Source of the DNA: Candidatus Sulfotelmatobacter sp. | GTDB taxonomy: Bacteria; Acidobacteriota; Terriglobia; Terriglobales; Acidobacteriaceae | Assembly: GCA_030041415.1 (NCBI GenBank) | Contig: JASHNX010000172.1 | Span: 1-57,002 of the forward strand | DNA length: 57,002 bases | Direction: 5' to 3' | Shown: positions 11,316 through 38,377 of the stretch, piece after piece | How the letters are laid out: each line of letters begins with the position of its first letter | Position numbering within the stretch: position 1 is the stretch's first letter | Notes under the pieces: generated by a model | Told to the model about the DNA's origin: nothing | Seen by the model: only the letters and a program-made list of their open reading frames with translations | The model's database searches: none | Translations under genes and position numbers: made by a program

Positions 11316-12368
11316 TTACCCGCACCCCAGCTTGAGTTTCAAATCGTCGGCGATCTGTCGGCCGTGGAAGCGGCCATTTTCAATGAAGATTTCATTTGTG
11401 CGCGAACCGGCGACAATCACTCCTGCCACATAAATTCCGGGAACGTTGCTTTCGAGGGAGACCGGATCGCAGACCGGGCGGCATTGCTCCTCCGATAACT
11501 CAATGCCCATGCTACGCAGAAAATCGTAATCCGGGTGGTAGCCGATCATGGCGAGGACAAAATCGTTTTTCAGCCGAATCGGGCCGCGTGGCGTGTCGAT
11601 CACCGCGTGGTCGACCCCGATTTCCTGCACCGAACTGTTGAAATAGGCTTCGATTTCTCCGTTCTTGATGCGGTTCTCGAGATCGGGCTTGATCCAGTAC
11701 TTCACGTGATGGTGCAGTTGCGAGCCACGATAAACGACAGTAACCCGCGCACCGTGGCGCCAGAGATCGAGCGCAGCAATCGCCGCGGAATTCTTCCCGC
11801 CGATAACGAGGACGTCGCTGTCGTAATAAGGGTGCGGCTCGCCATAATAATGCGAGACTTTGGGCAGATCCTCGCCGGGAATGCCCAGTTGGTTGGCGAG
11901 GTCATAATATCCCGTCGATACGATTACTTTCCGCGTTTTGTAATCGTGCGGGCGGCCGGCACGGTCGGTTGCGGTGATGCTGAATTTGCCGTCTTCGCCC
12001 ATCACCGTCTTCACCCACTCGTATTGGCGAACATCGAGTTCGTAATGCTCTGCGCATTTGCGGTAGTACTCGAGAGCTTCCTCGCGCGTCGGCTTCTGAT
12101 TTGCAGTGGTAAACGGTATGTCGCCGATCTCGAGCAGTTCGGGAGTGGTAAAAAACAGCATGCCAGCTGGATAGTGAAACAGCGAGTTCACCAAACAGCC
12201 TTTGTCGAGCACTATGACTTTCAGGCCGATTTTCTGAGCTTCAATAGCGCACGCCAGACCGGTTGGGCCAGCACCAATCACGATGACGTCGCAGCTCATT
12301 TCCGGATCGCCAAGTGTCTTGGCCTTCGGTAGGGTTTCGAGTTCTTCGGCGGCAAGCAGGTCTGGCAT
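11316..12368 (-). CDS. ypdA: YpdA-type FAD/NADPH oxidoreductase (putative bacillithiol disulfide reductase)
   Basis: The protein has two dinucleotide folds: an FAD-binding VIVIGAGPTGLACAIEAQK at about residues 29-47 and an NADPH-binding DVLVIGGKNSAAIAALDLW near 184-202. It ends with the family signature GIYVAGVIVAGSRTNEIFIE. It resembles thioredoxin reductase but lacks the CxxC redox pair, which is the hallmark of YpdA. YpdA enzymes are known to reduce bacillithiol disulfide in Firmicutes. The assignment implies that this organism uses bacillithiol, but no bsh genes occur in the window. Confidence 0.85.
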   Translation of the reverse strand: MPDLLAAEELETLPKAKTLGDPEMSCDVIVIGAGPTGLACAIEAQKIGLKVIVLDKGCLVNSLFHYPAGMLFFTTPELLEIGDIPFTTANQKPTREEALEYYRKCAEHYELDVRQYEWVKTVMGEDGKFSITATDRAGRPHDYKTRKVIVSTGYYDLANQLGIPGEDLPKVSHYYGEPHPYYDSDVLVIGGKNSAAIAALDLWRHGARVTVVYRGSQLHHHVKYWIKPDLENRIKNGEIEAYFNSSVQEIGVDHAVIDTPRGPIRLKNDFVLAMIGYHPDYDFLRSMGIELSEEQCRPVCDPVSLESNVPGIYVAGVIVAGSRTNEIFIENGRFHGRQIADDLKLKLGCG

Positions 12369-12452
12369 ACCAGAAACAGGTGTGCCCCTGTGGGCACGAA
12401 CATTGTTCAGAGACCGATGATTCTAGCATGGGGTACTGCTGCGTTCGCCGCA

Positions 12453-12650
12453 TTACGTCGAGGACGAGCCCGAGGAATCAGAATCGCCGCCGACAGGCTC
12501 GGCAAACCCTTCTTCGTCCTGAAGAATCTGCCTGGTCCGTGCCAGCAGGGTGCCGGTTCGGCGAATCAGCTCCTCGCTCTTGTCCATTGCTCGAATCGCC
12601 TTTCGGATCGCCTCGTCCAAACCTTTGTCGGATGCTTTTCTTGCCGCCAT
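12453..12650 (-). CDS. Small helical hypothetical protein
   Basis: A 65-residue frame with a Lys/Arg/Asp/Glu-rich helical body (DEAIRKAIRAMDKSEELIRR) and a Ser/Gly/Asp tail. Its start lies 58 nt from the CRP-like site of the divergent fumC promoter. It has no visible ribosome-binding site. The amphipathic heptad-like pattern suggests a real short coiled-coil protein. No function can be assigned. Confidence 0.45.
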   Translation of the reverse strand: MAARKASDKGLDEAIRKAIRAMDKSEELIRRTGTLLARTRQILQDEEGFAEPVGGDSDSSGSSST

Positions 12651-12707: not shown

Positions 12708-12748
12708 TGTGAGCTACATCACAAAACTGGAAGACAGCACGATATAAT
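12708..12748 (+). promoter_or_regulatory. fumC promoter with a perfect CRP-type operator
   Basis: TGTGA-N6-TCACA at 12708-12723 matches both half-sites of the CRP consensus exactly. TATAAT at 12743-12748 follows. If transcription starts at 12755-12757, the operator centre lies at about -40 to -41.5, the classical class II activator position. No -35 hexamer is visible, as expected for an activator-dependent promoter. The leader before fumC would be about 45 nt. Confidence 0.6.
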
Positions 12749-12800
12749 TTTTTGGTTACACCCTTCCATTTTTCTTTTAGGAACCCAAACAGGACGTACT

Positions 12801-14210
12801 ATGTCAGCTCCAATGGAATCGAAGATTCGCACGCGCACTGAATCCGACAGCATGGGGAAGATTGAAGTCCCAGCGAATGTTTATTGGGGGGCGCAAACCC
12901 AGCGATCACTACTGCATTTTGATATTGGCCGCGACACCATGCCGCCAGAATTGATTCGCGCATTCGGCATTCTGAAAAAAGCCTGCGCACTGGTGAACCA
13001 GGATTTGGGCAAACTTCCAGCCGAAAAAGCCAAATTGATTGTGCAGGCCGCCGACGAAGTGATCGCTGGCAAGCTGAATGATCAGTTTCCTCTGCGCATT
13101 TGGCAAACGGGTAGCGGGACGCAGACCAATATGAACGTGAACGAAGTCATCTCGAACCGCGCAATTGAGATCGCTGGCGGCGAGATGGGATCGAAGAAAC
13201 CGATTCATCCCAATGACGACGTGAACATGTCGCAGTCCTCGAACGACACGTTTCCTACGGCAATGCACATCGCAGCGGCCGATCGCGTCAAGAATGCATT
13301 GATTCCTGCGGTTCGCAGCGTTCGCGATGCGATCGCGGCCAAGGCAAAGGAATTCGATAGCGTGGTGAAGATTGGCCGCACGCATCTGCAGGATGCCGTG
13401 CCGCTGACCTTTGGACAGGAGTTCGGCGGATGGGCCGCGCTGCTCGAACGCGATATCAAGCGGCTGGAACAGGCGTTGGAAGGTTTATACGACCTTGCCA
13501 TCGGCGGAACGGCGGTGGGAACGGGACTGAATACGCATCCGGAATTTGCCGAGCGCGCGGCGAAGAAAATTGCCGAGCTAACCGGACTTCCCTTCCGTTC
13601 GCATGGAAACAAATTTGCCGCGCTATCAGCGCACGATGAAATTGTTTTCGCGCAGGGCGCGATGGAGACGCTCGCGGCATCTTTCATGAAAATTTCGAAC
13701 GACATTCGCTGGCTGGCTTCGGGACCGCGCTGCGGGCTGGGCGAGTTGACGATTCCGGAGAATGAGCCGGGCTCGTCGATCATGCCCGGCAAAGTGAATC
13801 CTACGCAATGCGAGGCGATGACCATGGTTTGCGTGCAGGTTCACGGCGCGACTGCCGCAGTCGGCTTCGCTGGTTCGCAGGGGAATTTCGAACTCAACGT
13901 CTACAAGCCGGTAATCATTTACAACTTTCTGCACTCGGTCACTCTGATCGCCGATGCCTGCCACGGCTATGTCGAGTACATGATCAACGGAATTGAAGTC
14001 GATCGAGCCAAAGTTGATTGGTATGTGAAGAATTCGCTGATGCTTGTCACGGCACTGGCGCCAAGAGTCGGATACGACAAAGCGGCGAAGATCGCGCACA
14101 CGGCGCACGTCGAGCACAGTAGCCTGCGCGACGCGGCGGTGATGCTCGGATACCTCACTGGGGAAGAGTTCGATCAGTTGGTGAAGCCGGAGAAGATGAC
14201 GAGGCCGTAG
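12801..14210 (+). CDS. fumC: Fumarate hydratase class II
   Basis: A 469-residue member of the fumarase/aspartase superfamily. The superfamily signature [11 protein letters not shown] is at about residues 325-335, preceded by the fumarase blocks [18 protein letters not shown] and [14 protein letters not shown]. Length and these blocks fit class II fumarase, the oxygen-stable iron-free enzyme that converts fumarate and malate in the citric-acid cycle. AGGA lies ten nucleotides before the ATG. It ends only 10 nt from the convergent gene, with no room for a terminator. Aspartase is the main alternative but less likely given the [10 protein letters not shown]-type block. Confidence 0.95.
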
Positions 14211-35831: not shown

Positions 35832-36917
35832 GTGAAGACTTGGGACGTAATCGTAATCGGCGGCGGGATCATCGGGCTTTCGCTTGCGATTGAGGTCCGC
35901 AAGCGCGGCGCCACCGTGCTTGTGGTCGAACGCGGCGAACCGGGACGCGAGGCCTCCCACGCCGCCGGTGGCATGCTGGTCGATAGCGGCGCCGAAACGC
36001 CCGCTGCATTGCAGGAGCTGGCGATTGCGAGCGCGCGCATGTATCCCGAGTTCGCGCAGGAATTGCAAGTTGAATCGGGAATATTTGTTGATTTGCGCGA
36101 ACAGGGAGCAATTGTTTTTCCTCCGCTTGAGGATGCGCGCCAGCAGCCGGCATTCAAGGTGGAGAGCCTACCCTCAGCTTCGTTGGCGGAACTGGAACCG
36201 GCTCTAGTCCATCATGAGCGCGCCGCATTTTTCCTGAAAGAACGCAGCATCGATCCCCGCGCAATCACCGCTGCCGCACTGGAGACCGCGAAACGCCGAG
36301 GTGTTGATGTCTCTTCGGGCGAAGAAGTCACCGCCGTGAATTTGTCCGAGGGGAAGGTGCATGGGGTCACGTCTCGCAAAACTTCCTATTTCGCAAAGAA
36401 AGTAGTGAACTGCGCGGGAGCCTGGTCGGGCCAGATTGCACCGCATCAGTTTCCTACGCGTCCGGTGAAAGGGCAAATGTTGTGCCTGATCGCTCCGTCG
36501 CGCGGGACGCTGACGCACGTAATTCGGTCTCCGGACGTTTATCTGATCCCGCGCAGCGACGGGCGAATTCTCGTGGGCACCACAGTCGAGGAAGCCGGCT
36601 TCGATAAACGCACCGACGTTGCCACAATCCAGCGCTTGCACCGTGCAGCGATCACGCTGATTCCCGAGTTGCGCAATGCGAAAATTCTGGAAGACTGGGC
36701 CGGCTTGCGGCCCGGAACTCCGGATTCGTTGCCGATTCTCGGCGAAACTTCGACGGCCGGCTATTACGTTGCGACCGGCCATTTTCGTGACGGCATTCTG
36801 CTCGCTCCGATCACGGCGCGAATCGTGGCACAGGTCATCACTGGAGAAAATTGCGATTACGACCTATCTGCATTTTCGCCCACCCGGTTTTCGATTGGAA
36901 GCAGCGAGCATCACTGA
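35832..36917 (+). CDS. thiO: Glycine oxidase ThiO-like FAD oxidoreductase
   Basis: A 361-residue D-amino-acid oxidase family flavoprotein. The FAD-binding motif VIVIGGGIIGLSLAIEVRKR starts at about residue 6, and the C-terminal region has GLRPGTPDSLPILGE followed by GYYVATGHFRDGILLAPITA, typical of glycine oxidase. ThiO supplies the imine for thiazole synthesis in thiamine biosynthesis, but no thi genes are nearby, so a more general amino-acid oxidase role is possible. The start is a GTG and no ribosome-binding site is required if the message is leaderless. Confidence 0.85.
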   Translation: MKTWDVIVIGGGIIGLSLAIEVRKRGATVLVVERGEPGREASHAAGGMLVDSGAETPAALQELAIASARMYPEFAQELQVESGIFVDLREQGAIVFPPLEDARQQPAFKVESLPSASLAELEPALVHHERAAFFLKERSIDPRAITAAALETAKRRGVDVSSGEEVTAVNLSEGKVHGVTSRKTSYFAKKVVNCAGAWSGQIAPHQFPTRPVKGQMLCLIAPSRGTLTHVIRSPDVYLIPRSDGRILVGTTVEEAGFDKRTDVATIQRLHRAAITLIPELRNAKILEDWAGLRPGTPDSLPILGETSTAGYYVATGHFRDGILLAPITARIVAQVITGENCDYDLSAFSPTRFSIGSSEHH

Positions 36918-37000
36918 TCCGCGCCCGCCGTGTGGCGTATACTGTGGGGTCTCGAAAGCATCAGTTATTTCCGCAGTGTGCCTCAGAAAGGAATTTCCTT

Positions 37001-38377
37001 ATGGCTTCTCCGGCAGTCGATTTTGCACGCAATAATCAACAGCGTTTTCTCGGCGAGCTGAAAGAACTTCTGCGCATTCCCAGCGTGAGCACCCTGGAAG
37101 AACACAAGTCCGATGTGCAGAAAGCGGCTGAGTTCGTAGCCAACGAACTGCGCCGCATCGGCATGGAAAATGTCGAAGTGATTCCGACCAAAGGCCATCC
37201 GCTGATTTATGCCGATTGGCTGCATGCTCCCGGCAAGCCCACGGCGCTCTGCTATGCACACTACGATGTTCAGCCGCCTGATCCACTGGATGAATGGCAC
37301 ACGCCGCCATTCGAGCCGACAGAACGAAATAACAACATCTATGCGCGCGGCGCTGTCGACGACAAAGGCCAGTTGTGGATGGAAGTAAAGGCGCTTGAGT
37401 CGCTCATGAAGTCTGGCAATGGCAAGTTGCCAATTAATGTGAAGATTCTTTTTGAGGGCGAAGAAGAAGTAGGGGGTGAATCCATTGCGGAATACGTCCG
37501 CAAAGAGAAGGCCAAACTGAAAGCCGATTTCGCCCTGGTCTGCGACACGGAACTGTTTGCTCCCGGTCTTCCGACTTTGTGTGTTGGCCTGCGCGGCCTG
37601 GTTTATACGGAGATCGAAGCCTACGGTGCGAAGATCGATTTGCACTCCGGCGTCTACGGCGGCGCCGCTCCTAATCCGTTCTTCGCGCTGATCGAGATCA
37701 TCAGCAAGCTGAAGGACGCCAAGGGGCACATCCTGATTCCGGGCTTTTACAGTAAAGTCAAAGCTCCCAGCAAGGACGAACTGCAAGCCTGGAAACGGCT
37801 GCCGTTCAACGAAGAGCACTACCGCAAGACTGAAGTCGGATCAAAAGTTCTCACCGGCGAGCCGGGGTATTCCGTGCTGTATCGCACCTGGGCGCGGCCG
37901 ACGCTCGAAGTTCACGGCATGCCGGGTGGATTCATCGGCGCAGGCGCGAAGACCGTCATTCCTGCCAAGGCGACAGCGAAAGTCTCGATGAGGCTTGTGC
38001 CCAATCAGGATCCAAACGACATCCTGAAGCGCTACACCGCATTTGTGAAGAAGCTCACGCCAAAGGGCATTGAAACGAAGATCAAAGTTCACAGCAAAGG
38101 CCCAGCCAGCGTTGTGGGTACCGACAATCCGTATATCGAAGCCGCGACTGAAGCATTGCACGACACATTCAAGAAAGACACCGTTTTCATTCGCAGTGGC
38201 GGATCGATTCCGATCGTCAACGATATTTATCAAGCCCTGAAAATTCCCAGCGTGATGATGGGCTTCGGCCTGCCCGATGATAATCTTCACGCGCCGAACG
38301 AGAAGTTCCACATCCCGAATTTTCACCACGGGATTGAAACCATTTGTTTGTTCTTTGAGAAACTGGGAGGCGCTTAG
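37001..38377 (+). CDS. M20-family dipeptidase (metallopeptidase)
   Basis: A 458-residue zinc metallopeptidase of the M20 family. The metal-binding blocks are AHYDVQP at about residues 85-91 and ARGAVDDKGQLWMEVKAL near 112-129. The catalytic Glu pair is in LFEGEEEVGGES, and a dimerisation domain follows (VYGGAAPNPFFALIEIISK). It most resembles the dipeptidase/PepV-like group. AGAAAGGA nine nucleotides upstream sets the ATG at 37001, after the stop of thiO at 36917. An upstream ATG at 36851 would overlap thiO by 67 nt and lacks family similarity. Confidence 0.93.
   Translation: MASPAVDFARNNQQRFLGELKELLRIPSVSTLEEHKSDVQKAAEFVANELRRIGMENVEVIPTKGHPLIYADWLHAPGKPTALCYAHYDVQPPDPLDEWHTPPFEPTERNNNIYARGAVDDKGQLWMEVKALESLMKSGNGKLPINVKILFEGEEEVGGESIAEYVRKEKAKLKADFALVCDTELFAPGLPTLCVGLRGLVYTEIEAYGAKIDLHSGVYGGAAPNPFFALIEIISKLKDAKGHILIPGFYSKVKAPSKDELQAWKRLPFNEEHYRKTEVGSKVLTGEPGYSVLYRTWARPTLEVHGMPGGFIGAGAKTVIPAKATAKVSMRLVPNQDPNDILKRYTAFVKKLTPKGIETKIKVHSKGPASVVGTDNPYIEAATEALHDTFKKDTVFIRSGGSIPIVNDIYQALKIPSVMMGFGLPDDNLHAPNEKFHIPNFHHGIETICLFFEKLGGA

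Follow-up and report, generated by a model that had tools for sequence, protein, structure and literature searches.

Organization of the fumC locus

The window, that is, the whole stretch of 57,002 nt analysed here, carries fumC, a CRP-type palindrome upstream of it and ypdA on the opposite strand. The features of this region are as follows:

11316-12368, minus strand: ypdA, putative bacillithiol disulfide reductase (TIGR04018, over cut-off)
12453-12650, minus strand: 65-aa ORF of doubtful coding status
12708-12723, no strand given: operator TGTGAGCTACATCACA (TGTGA-N6-TCACA), centre 12715.5, 0 mismatches
12743-12748, plus strand: fumC -10 box TATAAT, 19 nt past the palindrome, with a predicted +1 near 12755
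12801-14210, plus strand: fumC, class II fumarate hydratase, 469 aa (TIGR00979, 757 bits, over cut-off)

A motif scan of the whole window located perfect TGTGA-N6-TCACA at 12708-12723 only, where base composition predicts approximately 0.04 perfect matches per window. With up to two mismatches, 18 matches were counted in the window and 17.5 in shuffled sequences; thus, the perfect match alone is informative. A one-mismatch copy, TGTGA-N6-TCACG, lies at 38044-38059 inside a long ORF (36851-38377) and is probably due to chance.

The original prediction that both half-sites are intact and that TATAAT lies 19 nt beyond them was borne out. It had also placed the operator centre at -40 to -41.5, which did not hold: the centre falls at -39.5 if transcription starts at 12755, as predicted from TATAAT. 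Canonical class II operators are centred at -41.5, and the fumC operator is therefore approximately 2 nt off this position. The best match to a TTGACA -35 box, at spacers of 16-18, was two of six bases.

The small divergent gene proposed at 12453-12650 found no support. The 65-aa ORF had no match in a family profile search, tblastn over the genus loci compared returned only the ORF itself, and the ORF is possibly non-coding. The divergent neighbour with better support is ypdA, the start of which is 340 nt from the operator. A ypdA match adjoins fumC in 21 of 22 genus loci, and none was seen within the available stretch of the remaining locus. Near the ypdA start, a short block of the window (12404-12431) has matches in ten other genus loci; its minus strand contains TGCTAGAAT, perhaps the -10 box of ypdA.

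Occurrence of the operator in the genome, genus and phylum

The genome containing the window (G000) is a 4.8-Mb draft in 350 contigs, 95.6% complete. It holds 18 perfect copies of TGTGA-N6-TCACA compared with one for the reversed control, and approximately 3.3 perfect sites per genome are predicted from base composition (Poisson P ~2e-8). When spacers of 0-20 bases were compared, N6 accounted for 18 of the 47 matches. A palindrome in clear excess at a fixed spacing, as found here, is the mark of a CRP/FNR-superfamily operator. By mechanical ORF calling, an ORF start (at least 150 aa, reading away from the site) lies within approximately 270 nt of 17 of the 18 sites, while the remaining site, on contig C108, has its nearest ORF start 468 nt away. 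The genome-wide search thus reached well beyond fumC to a multi-gene set that includes central metabolism, as had been anticipated, and the palindrome before fumC, one of the 18 perfect copies, is a predicted but real regulator-binding site.

Sites were present in all 41 genus genomes, with 993 overall compared with 57 for the controls. In three of these genomes (G017, G037 and G039) the count was barely above control, and G044 had only three sites despite a C165 orthologue (83%; see below). Across the 41 genomes, site number and number of regulator matches were correlated (Spearman 0.63), although this falls to a partial correlation of 0.35 because genome size explains much of it. An identical operator, TGTGACGGATGTCACA or its complement, recurs at G000:C319:173-188, G036:C451:8639-8654 and G040:C144:1214-1229 and three times in G037 (contigs C37, C39 and C47); it could be part of a repeat element or reflect one strongly kept spacer.

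In a phylum scan, a site occurred at least once in 89 of 119 genomes, most of which had few. The larger numbers came from the genus itself, from some genera of the family (18 and 13 in g11) and from other families here and there (for example, 19 and 14 in f7), so the box also occurs outside the genus.

Candidate regulators

A profile search of the genome revealed three proteins, referred to here by their contigs as C165, C326 and C152, with both PF00027 and PF13545 over cut-off. All three carry the recognition helix R-E-T-V-x-R, so that the CRP/FNR protein with an R-E-xx-R helix foreseen in the original prediction is represented three times. The first position of this helix aligns as Arg in each of them and as Val in Escherichia coli FNR. 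The other PF00027 proteins (C293, C259, C254 and C171) were set aside, as they lack a PF13545 match; in C171 the cyclic-nucleotide domain is followed by a reductase-like stretch, and a helix-turn-helix was not seen. Weak PF13545 matches in C282 and C94 stayed below cut-off.

C165 and C326 also share an N-terminal Cx2Cx8C motif. An alignment of 29 genus proteins, the products of the 30 regulator loci returned from the 41 genus genomes less L080, where the frame is broken, shows four cysteines (C13, C16, C25 and C64) without exception. Of 393 homologues confirmed in public genomes, the best 80 loci were compared; the same four cysteines are present in every one of the 78 rows that could be aligned, and the other two, L250 and L265, gave only 1 and 10 readable residues and are uninformative. 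Helix patterns served as seeds for the homologue search, which makes conservation of the helix there in part a consequence of the design; the cysteines played no role in the seeding. The C152 paralogue (L034:1646-2341 in G000), with the helix R-E-T-V-S-R, lacks all four cysteines together, as if they were one unit, and is possibly a constitutive or antagonist member of the family.

In the alignment, C64 is placed opposite an Arg of FNR; hence the fourth ligand, if a cluster exists, is not at the FNR place. The position of FNR C122 holds a Cys in 67 of the 80 public rows and in 13 of the 29 genus rows. A fourth ligand at this position is weakened as a candidate, since C64 is invariant and C112 is not. 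Among 17 aligned genus proteins, no cysteine was found past column 172 of 241.

The NCBIfam CRP/FNR equivalogs do not assign C165: no curated cut-off was reached, the best score being 82.8 for FtrB (211 needed), followed by 78 for CRP (266 needed) and 45.8 for FNR (228 needed). An AlphaFold model of L200, which is 98% identical to C165 (pLDDT 79, pTM 0.61), superposes on holo-FNR with Z 24.6 and 2.3 A over 225 residues. It matches holo-FNR and cAMP-bound CRP-type folds equally (Z 24-25), and the fold therefore does not decide the sensor. The regulator is probably FNR-like rather than a cAMP-CRP, though its box is CRP-like.

Counting distant relatives and fragments, matches to the FNR-like regulator numbered from 1 per genus genome to 23 in G034, a large paralogue expansion.

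Operators upstream of the regulator genes

Two perfect operators lie just upstream of the CRP/FNR-family gene on contig C165. In all 30 genus regulator loci, the 600 nt upstream contain a site that is perfect or has a single mismatch, and in the C165 group the site is perfect in 14 of 14 loci and doubled, again perfectly, in 13 of 14. Among the 80 public homologue loci, 36 had a perfect site within 500 nt upstream, 53 had one with at most one mismatch and 27 had none. Wrong spacings, scrambled boxes and a TTGAT/ATCAA box gave no perfect site and 0-2 sites with at most one mismatch in the same 80 loci; TTGAT-N4-ATCAA itself was found in none of the 80 upstream regions at this tolerance. The operator before the regulators' own genes, suggesting autoregulation, is the strongest link between the box and these proteins.

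Predicted target genes

Shared targets were compared in four genomes (G000, G036, G012 and G041) using perfect sites only. Operators precede the regulator gene, the pyruvate:ferredoxin oxidoreductase gene and resB in all four, and the genes for a succinate CoA-transferase and a PAS-GGDEF-EAL protein (at 467-550 nt) in three. Targets in two of the four genomes include, among others, pckG (PEPCK), mreB, yifB, ispE, a response regulator gene, hypD (two sites in each genome) and the genes for ferritin, a 2-hydroxyglutaryl-CoA-dehydratase-type protein, an acetyl-CoA hydrolase/transferase and a carboxyltransferase. Those of G000 alone comprise acs, adhP and amtB, the genes for a family 2A encapsulin and its cysteine desulfurase, and a gene resembling pntA that scores slightly below its cut-off. 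Absence of a target from the other three genomes may reflect draft incompleteness and the listing of perfect sites only.

The encapsulin locus of G000 is as follows:

L021:2237-4998 (contig C157): family 2A encapsulin shell gene (NF041162, over cut-off), with a perfect operator upstream

The cargo-type cysteine desulfurase gene beside it is partial in the available stretch. This arrangement hints that the encapsulin compartment belongs to the regulon.

Much of the target set is made up of anaerobic, fermentative or acetate metabolism. The genes mreB, yifB and ispE, that for a PilZ protein and the signalling genes are no obvious fit to anaerobiosis. Among 109 site-gene pairs, eight -10-like boxes were found 27.5-30.5 nt from operator centres, compared with approximately 1.3 expected over these four offsets (mean 0.32 per offset). 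However, offset 57.5 equals offset 29.5 (four boxes each), fumC contributes two of the eight and the pairs are not independent, so that the excess lends weak support to class II placement.

The fumC site across the genus

The fumC gene was sought in 27 of the 41 genus genomes, and the DNA upstream was readable in 23; in G005, G008, G009 and G044, fumC or its upstream region was not found. TATAAT stands at a similar place before fumC in 22 of the 23 loci, while the operator is present in three (perfect in G000 and G012, one mismatch in G041). Conservation of the site in related genomes is thus patchy. It is missing from G036, the closest relative by regulator identity (98%), in which the gap between ypdA and fumC is much shorter, and from G040, which retains TATAAT. 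In the regulator tree, G000, G012 and G041 fall inside one group of eight, yet form no clade within it. Genomes carrying a C165 orthologue (at least 78%) have the fumC site in 3 of 11 cases and non-carriers in 0 of 12, numbers too few for significance.

In the three genomes with a site, the distance from the operator centre to the first base of the -10 box is 27.5 nt (G000), 30.5 nt (G012) and 29.5 nt (G041), corresponding to -39.5, -42.5 and -41.5 from the predicted +1. The flanks and spacers of the three operators have diverged, but all three lie at a class II distance from the predicted -10 box, in keeping with the placement originally proposed.

The absence of a -35 box was likewise confirmed, although not as a sign of activator dependence. 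None of the promoters compared, whether with the site (three) or without it (18), has a -35 box; the 18 site-less ones match TTGACA at best in three of six positions, and four of them have an extended -10. Since site-less promoters also lack the -35 box, its absence is no proof of activator dependence, and this argument was rejected as describing a general property of the fumC promoter in the genus loci compared. A need for an activator at fumC is accordingly not deduced, and an activator may instead modulate the promoter. As for control of fumarase by a CRP/FNR-family regulator, the regulators and the motif set are in place; activator dependence and a generally kept fumC site are not. This is a modest finding, in which fumC has lineage-specific membership in a wider regulon.

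Proposed mechanism and alternative explanations

The explanation we consider likely makes the palindrome an operator in a CRP/FNR-superfamily regulon of an acidobacterium, probably a Candidatus Sulfotelmatobacter, governed by FNR-like regulators, which would bind as dimers under low oxygen and raise fumC transcription from a class II position. The box would be read by C165, and possibly also by C326 and the cysteine-free C152, with the R-E-T-V-x-R helix contacting TGTGA as CRP does. We infer that C13, C16 and C25 (Cx2Cx8C), together with C64, hold an iron-sulfur cluster, and that the dimer binds when oxygen is low or NO is absent. Bound near -39.5, next to the fumC -10 box, it would contact RNA polymerase and raise transcription. 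Fumarase would thereby join a set that includes pyruvate:ferredoxin oxidoreductase, PEPCK, acetyl-CoA synthetase and cytochrome c biogenesis.

A broader proposal, which we put forward tentatively and at slightly less than even chances, is that these proteins constitute a hitherto unrecognised Acidobacteriota class of iron-sulfur FNR-like sensors. Members would use C64, in the beta-barrel, as a fourth cysteine at a new place, read a CRP-type code through one common type of operator, regulate themselves and have multiplied in some genomes, and those without the four cysteines would act constitutively or antagonistically on the same sites, that of fumC included.

The operator could be real and yet be bound by C152 at fumC, or else be lineage-specific and either weak or repressive, with little effect. 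We hold this to be rather unlikely. The patchy presence (3 of 23), the otherwise similar site-less promoters, the same type of helix in C152 and a centre approximately 2 nt from -41.5 all agree with it; against it stand the class II distance retained in three genomes with diverged flanks and the fit of much of the remaining target set to low-oxygen metabolism.

Binding by a cAMP-dependent CRP that reports carbon or energy status, as in enterobacteria, is quite improbable. Both the box and the R-E-xx-R helix resemble those of CRP, and the targets acs and pckG are also among those of E. coli CRP. However, none of the three regulators keeps the cAMP-contacting Arg-Ser of the phosphate cassette (the ERS of E. 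coli CRP aligns with other residues in them), and two of the three carry the four-cysteine set. The genome also has no PF00211 cyclase, in a search confined to that cyclase family that left the E. coli control unmatched too. With the cAMP-pocket residues missing and PF00211 absent, cAMP-CRP is disfavoured.

That the palindrome arose before fumC by chance, unrelated to the regulon, is more improbable still. In its favour, base composition predicts approximately three perfect matches in each genome, and most relatives lack the site. Against it, a conserved -10 box follows the palindrome at class II distance, and the same arrangement occurs in two other genomes with other spacer sequences.

The NADH-sensing repressor Rex is rejected and practically excluded as the reader of the site: the Staphylococcus aureus Rex box, TTGTGAA-N4-TTCACAA, contains TGTGA-N6-TCACA according to the available part of the source (PMC2883068), and fermentation genes are among the targets, but none of the 18 sites has the A/T inner bases of Rex (the base after TGTGA is T in 20, C in nine, G in seven and A in none of the 36 half-sites), and PF06971 is absent from the genome in a search that was positive in 7 of 14 control genomes.

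Relation to known systems

The preferred reading is an FNR-like regulon with a CRP-type box. With an operator, a regulator family and a list of targets predicted, a switch between oxic and anoxic life becomes testable in this group. Described Candidatus Sulfotelmatobacter genomes belong to facultatively anaerobic wetland acidobacteria (PMC6018796, available part). Among the literature matches listed, no account of oxic/anoxic switching in Candidatus Sulfotelmatobacter was found and no acidobacterial CRP/FNR regulon appeared, as judged by titles and the beginnings of abstracts. The available parts of PMC9603854, PMC12531629 and PMC8510549 contain no word beginning with acidobacter. The regulators described here belong to a little-studied family that probably senses oxygen through an iron-sulfur cluster and seems to control anaerobic metabolism.

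FNR is a [4Fe-4S] oxygen sensor, the cysteine ligands of which are known, C122 being the fourth. FNR of E. coli and Aliivibrio fischeri resembles the C165-type proteins in its CRP/FNR fold, in the aligned N-terminal Cx2C and in several targets of anaerobic type. It differs in having five residues before the third cysteine (eight in C165 and C326), an Arg where the C165 type has the invariant C64 and Val in place of Arg at the first helix contact. Arg at this contact leads to TGTGA rather than TTGAT boxes; a published correlation connects Arg at this position with G at the third base of the box (PMC1274295). Of the canonical FNR features, the N-terminal cysteine triad is present, while the C122-position ligand and the TTGAT-N4-ATCAA box are not. 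The C165 type is thus FNR-like in its likely working and outside canonical FNR by its fourth cysteine and its box. Its invariant C64 suggests another way of holding a sensing cluster in the CRP/FNR fold.

With E. coli CRP, the C165 type shares the R-E-T-V-x-R helix and the TGTGA-N6-TCACA box, the latter being the CRP consensus (PMC1274295, available part). In contrast to CRP, it lacks the Arg-Ser pair of the cAMP pocket and has gained N-terminal cysteines. HcpR of Desulfovibrio resembles the C165 type in its predicted sites, wTGTGAnnnnnnTCACAw, a form that goes together with Arg at CRP position 180; unlike the C165 type, HcpR is without the FNR-type cysteine motif according to the same source (PMC1274295), and its first described targets were hcp and frdX.

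A CRP-type box paired with an FNR-type protein is already known from the Bacillus subtilis FNR group, in which the Thermoanaerobacter tengcongensis orthologue of B. subtilis Fnr has a CRP-like motif (PMC1274295). B. subtilis Fnr is an FNR-type iron-sulfur regulator, as is predicted for the C165 type. The two differ in that the cluster of B. subtilis Fnr lies in the C-terminal DNA-binding domain (PMC12937710, available part), whereas the conserved cysteines of the C165 type are N-terminal.
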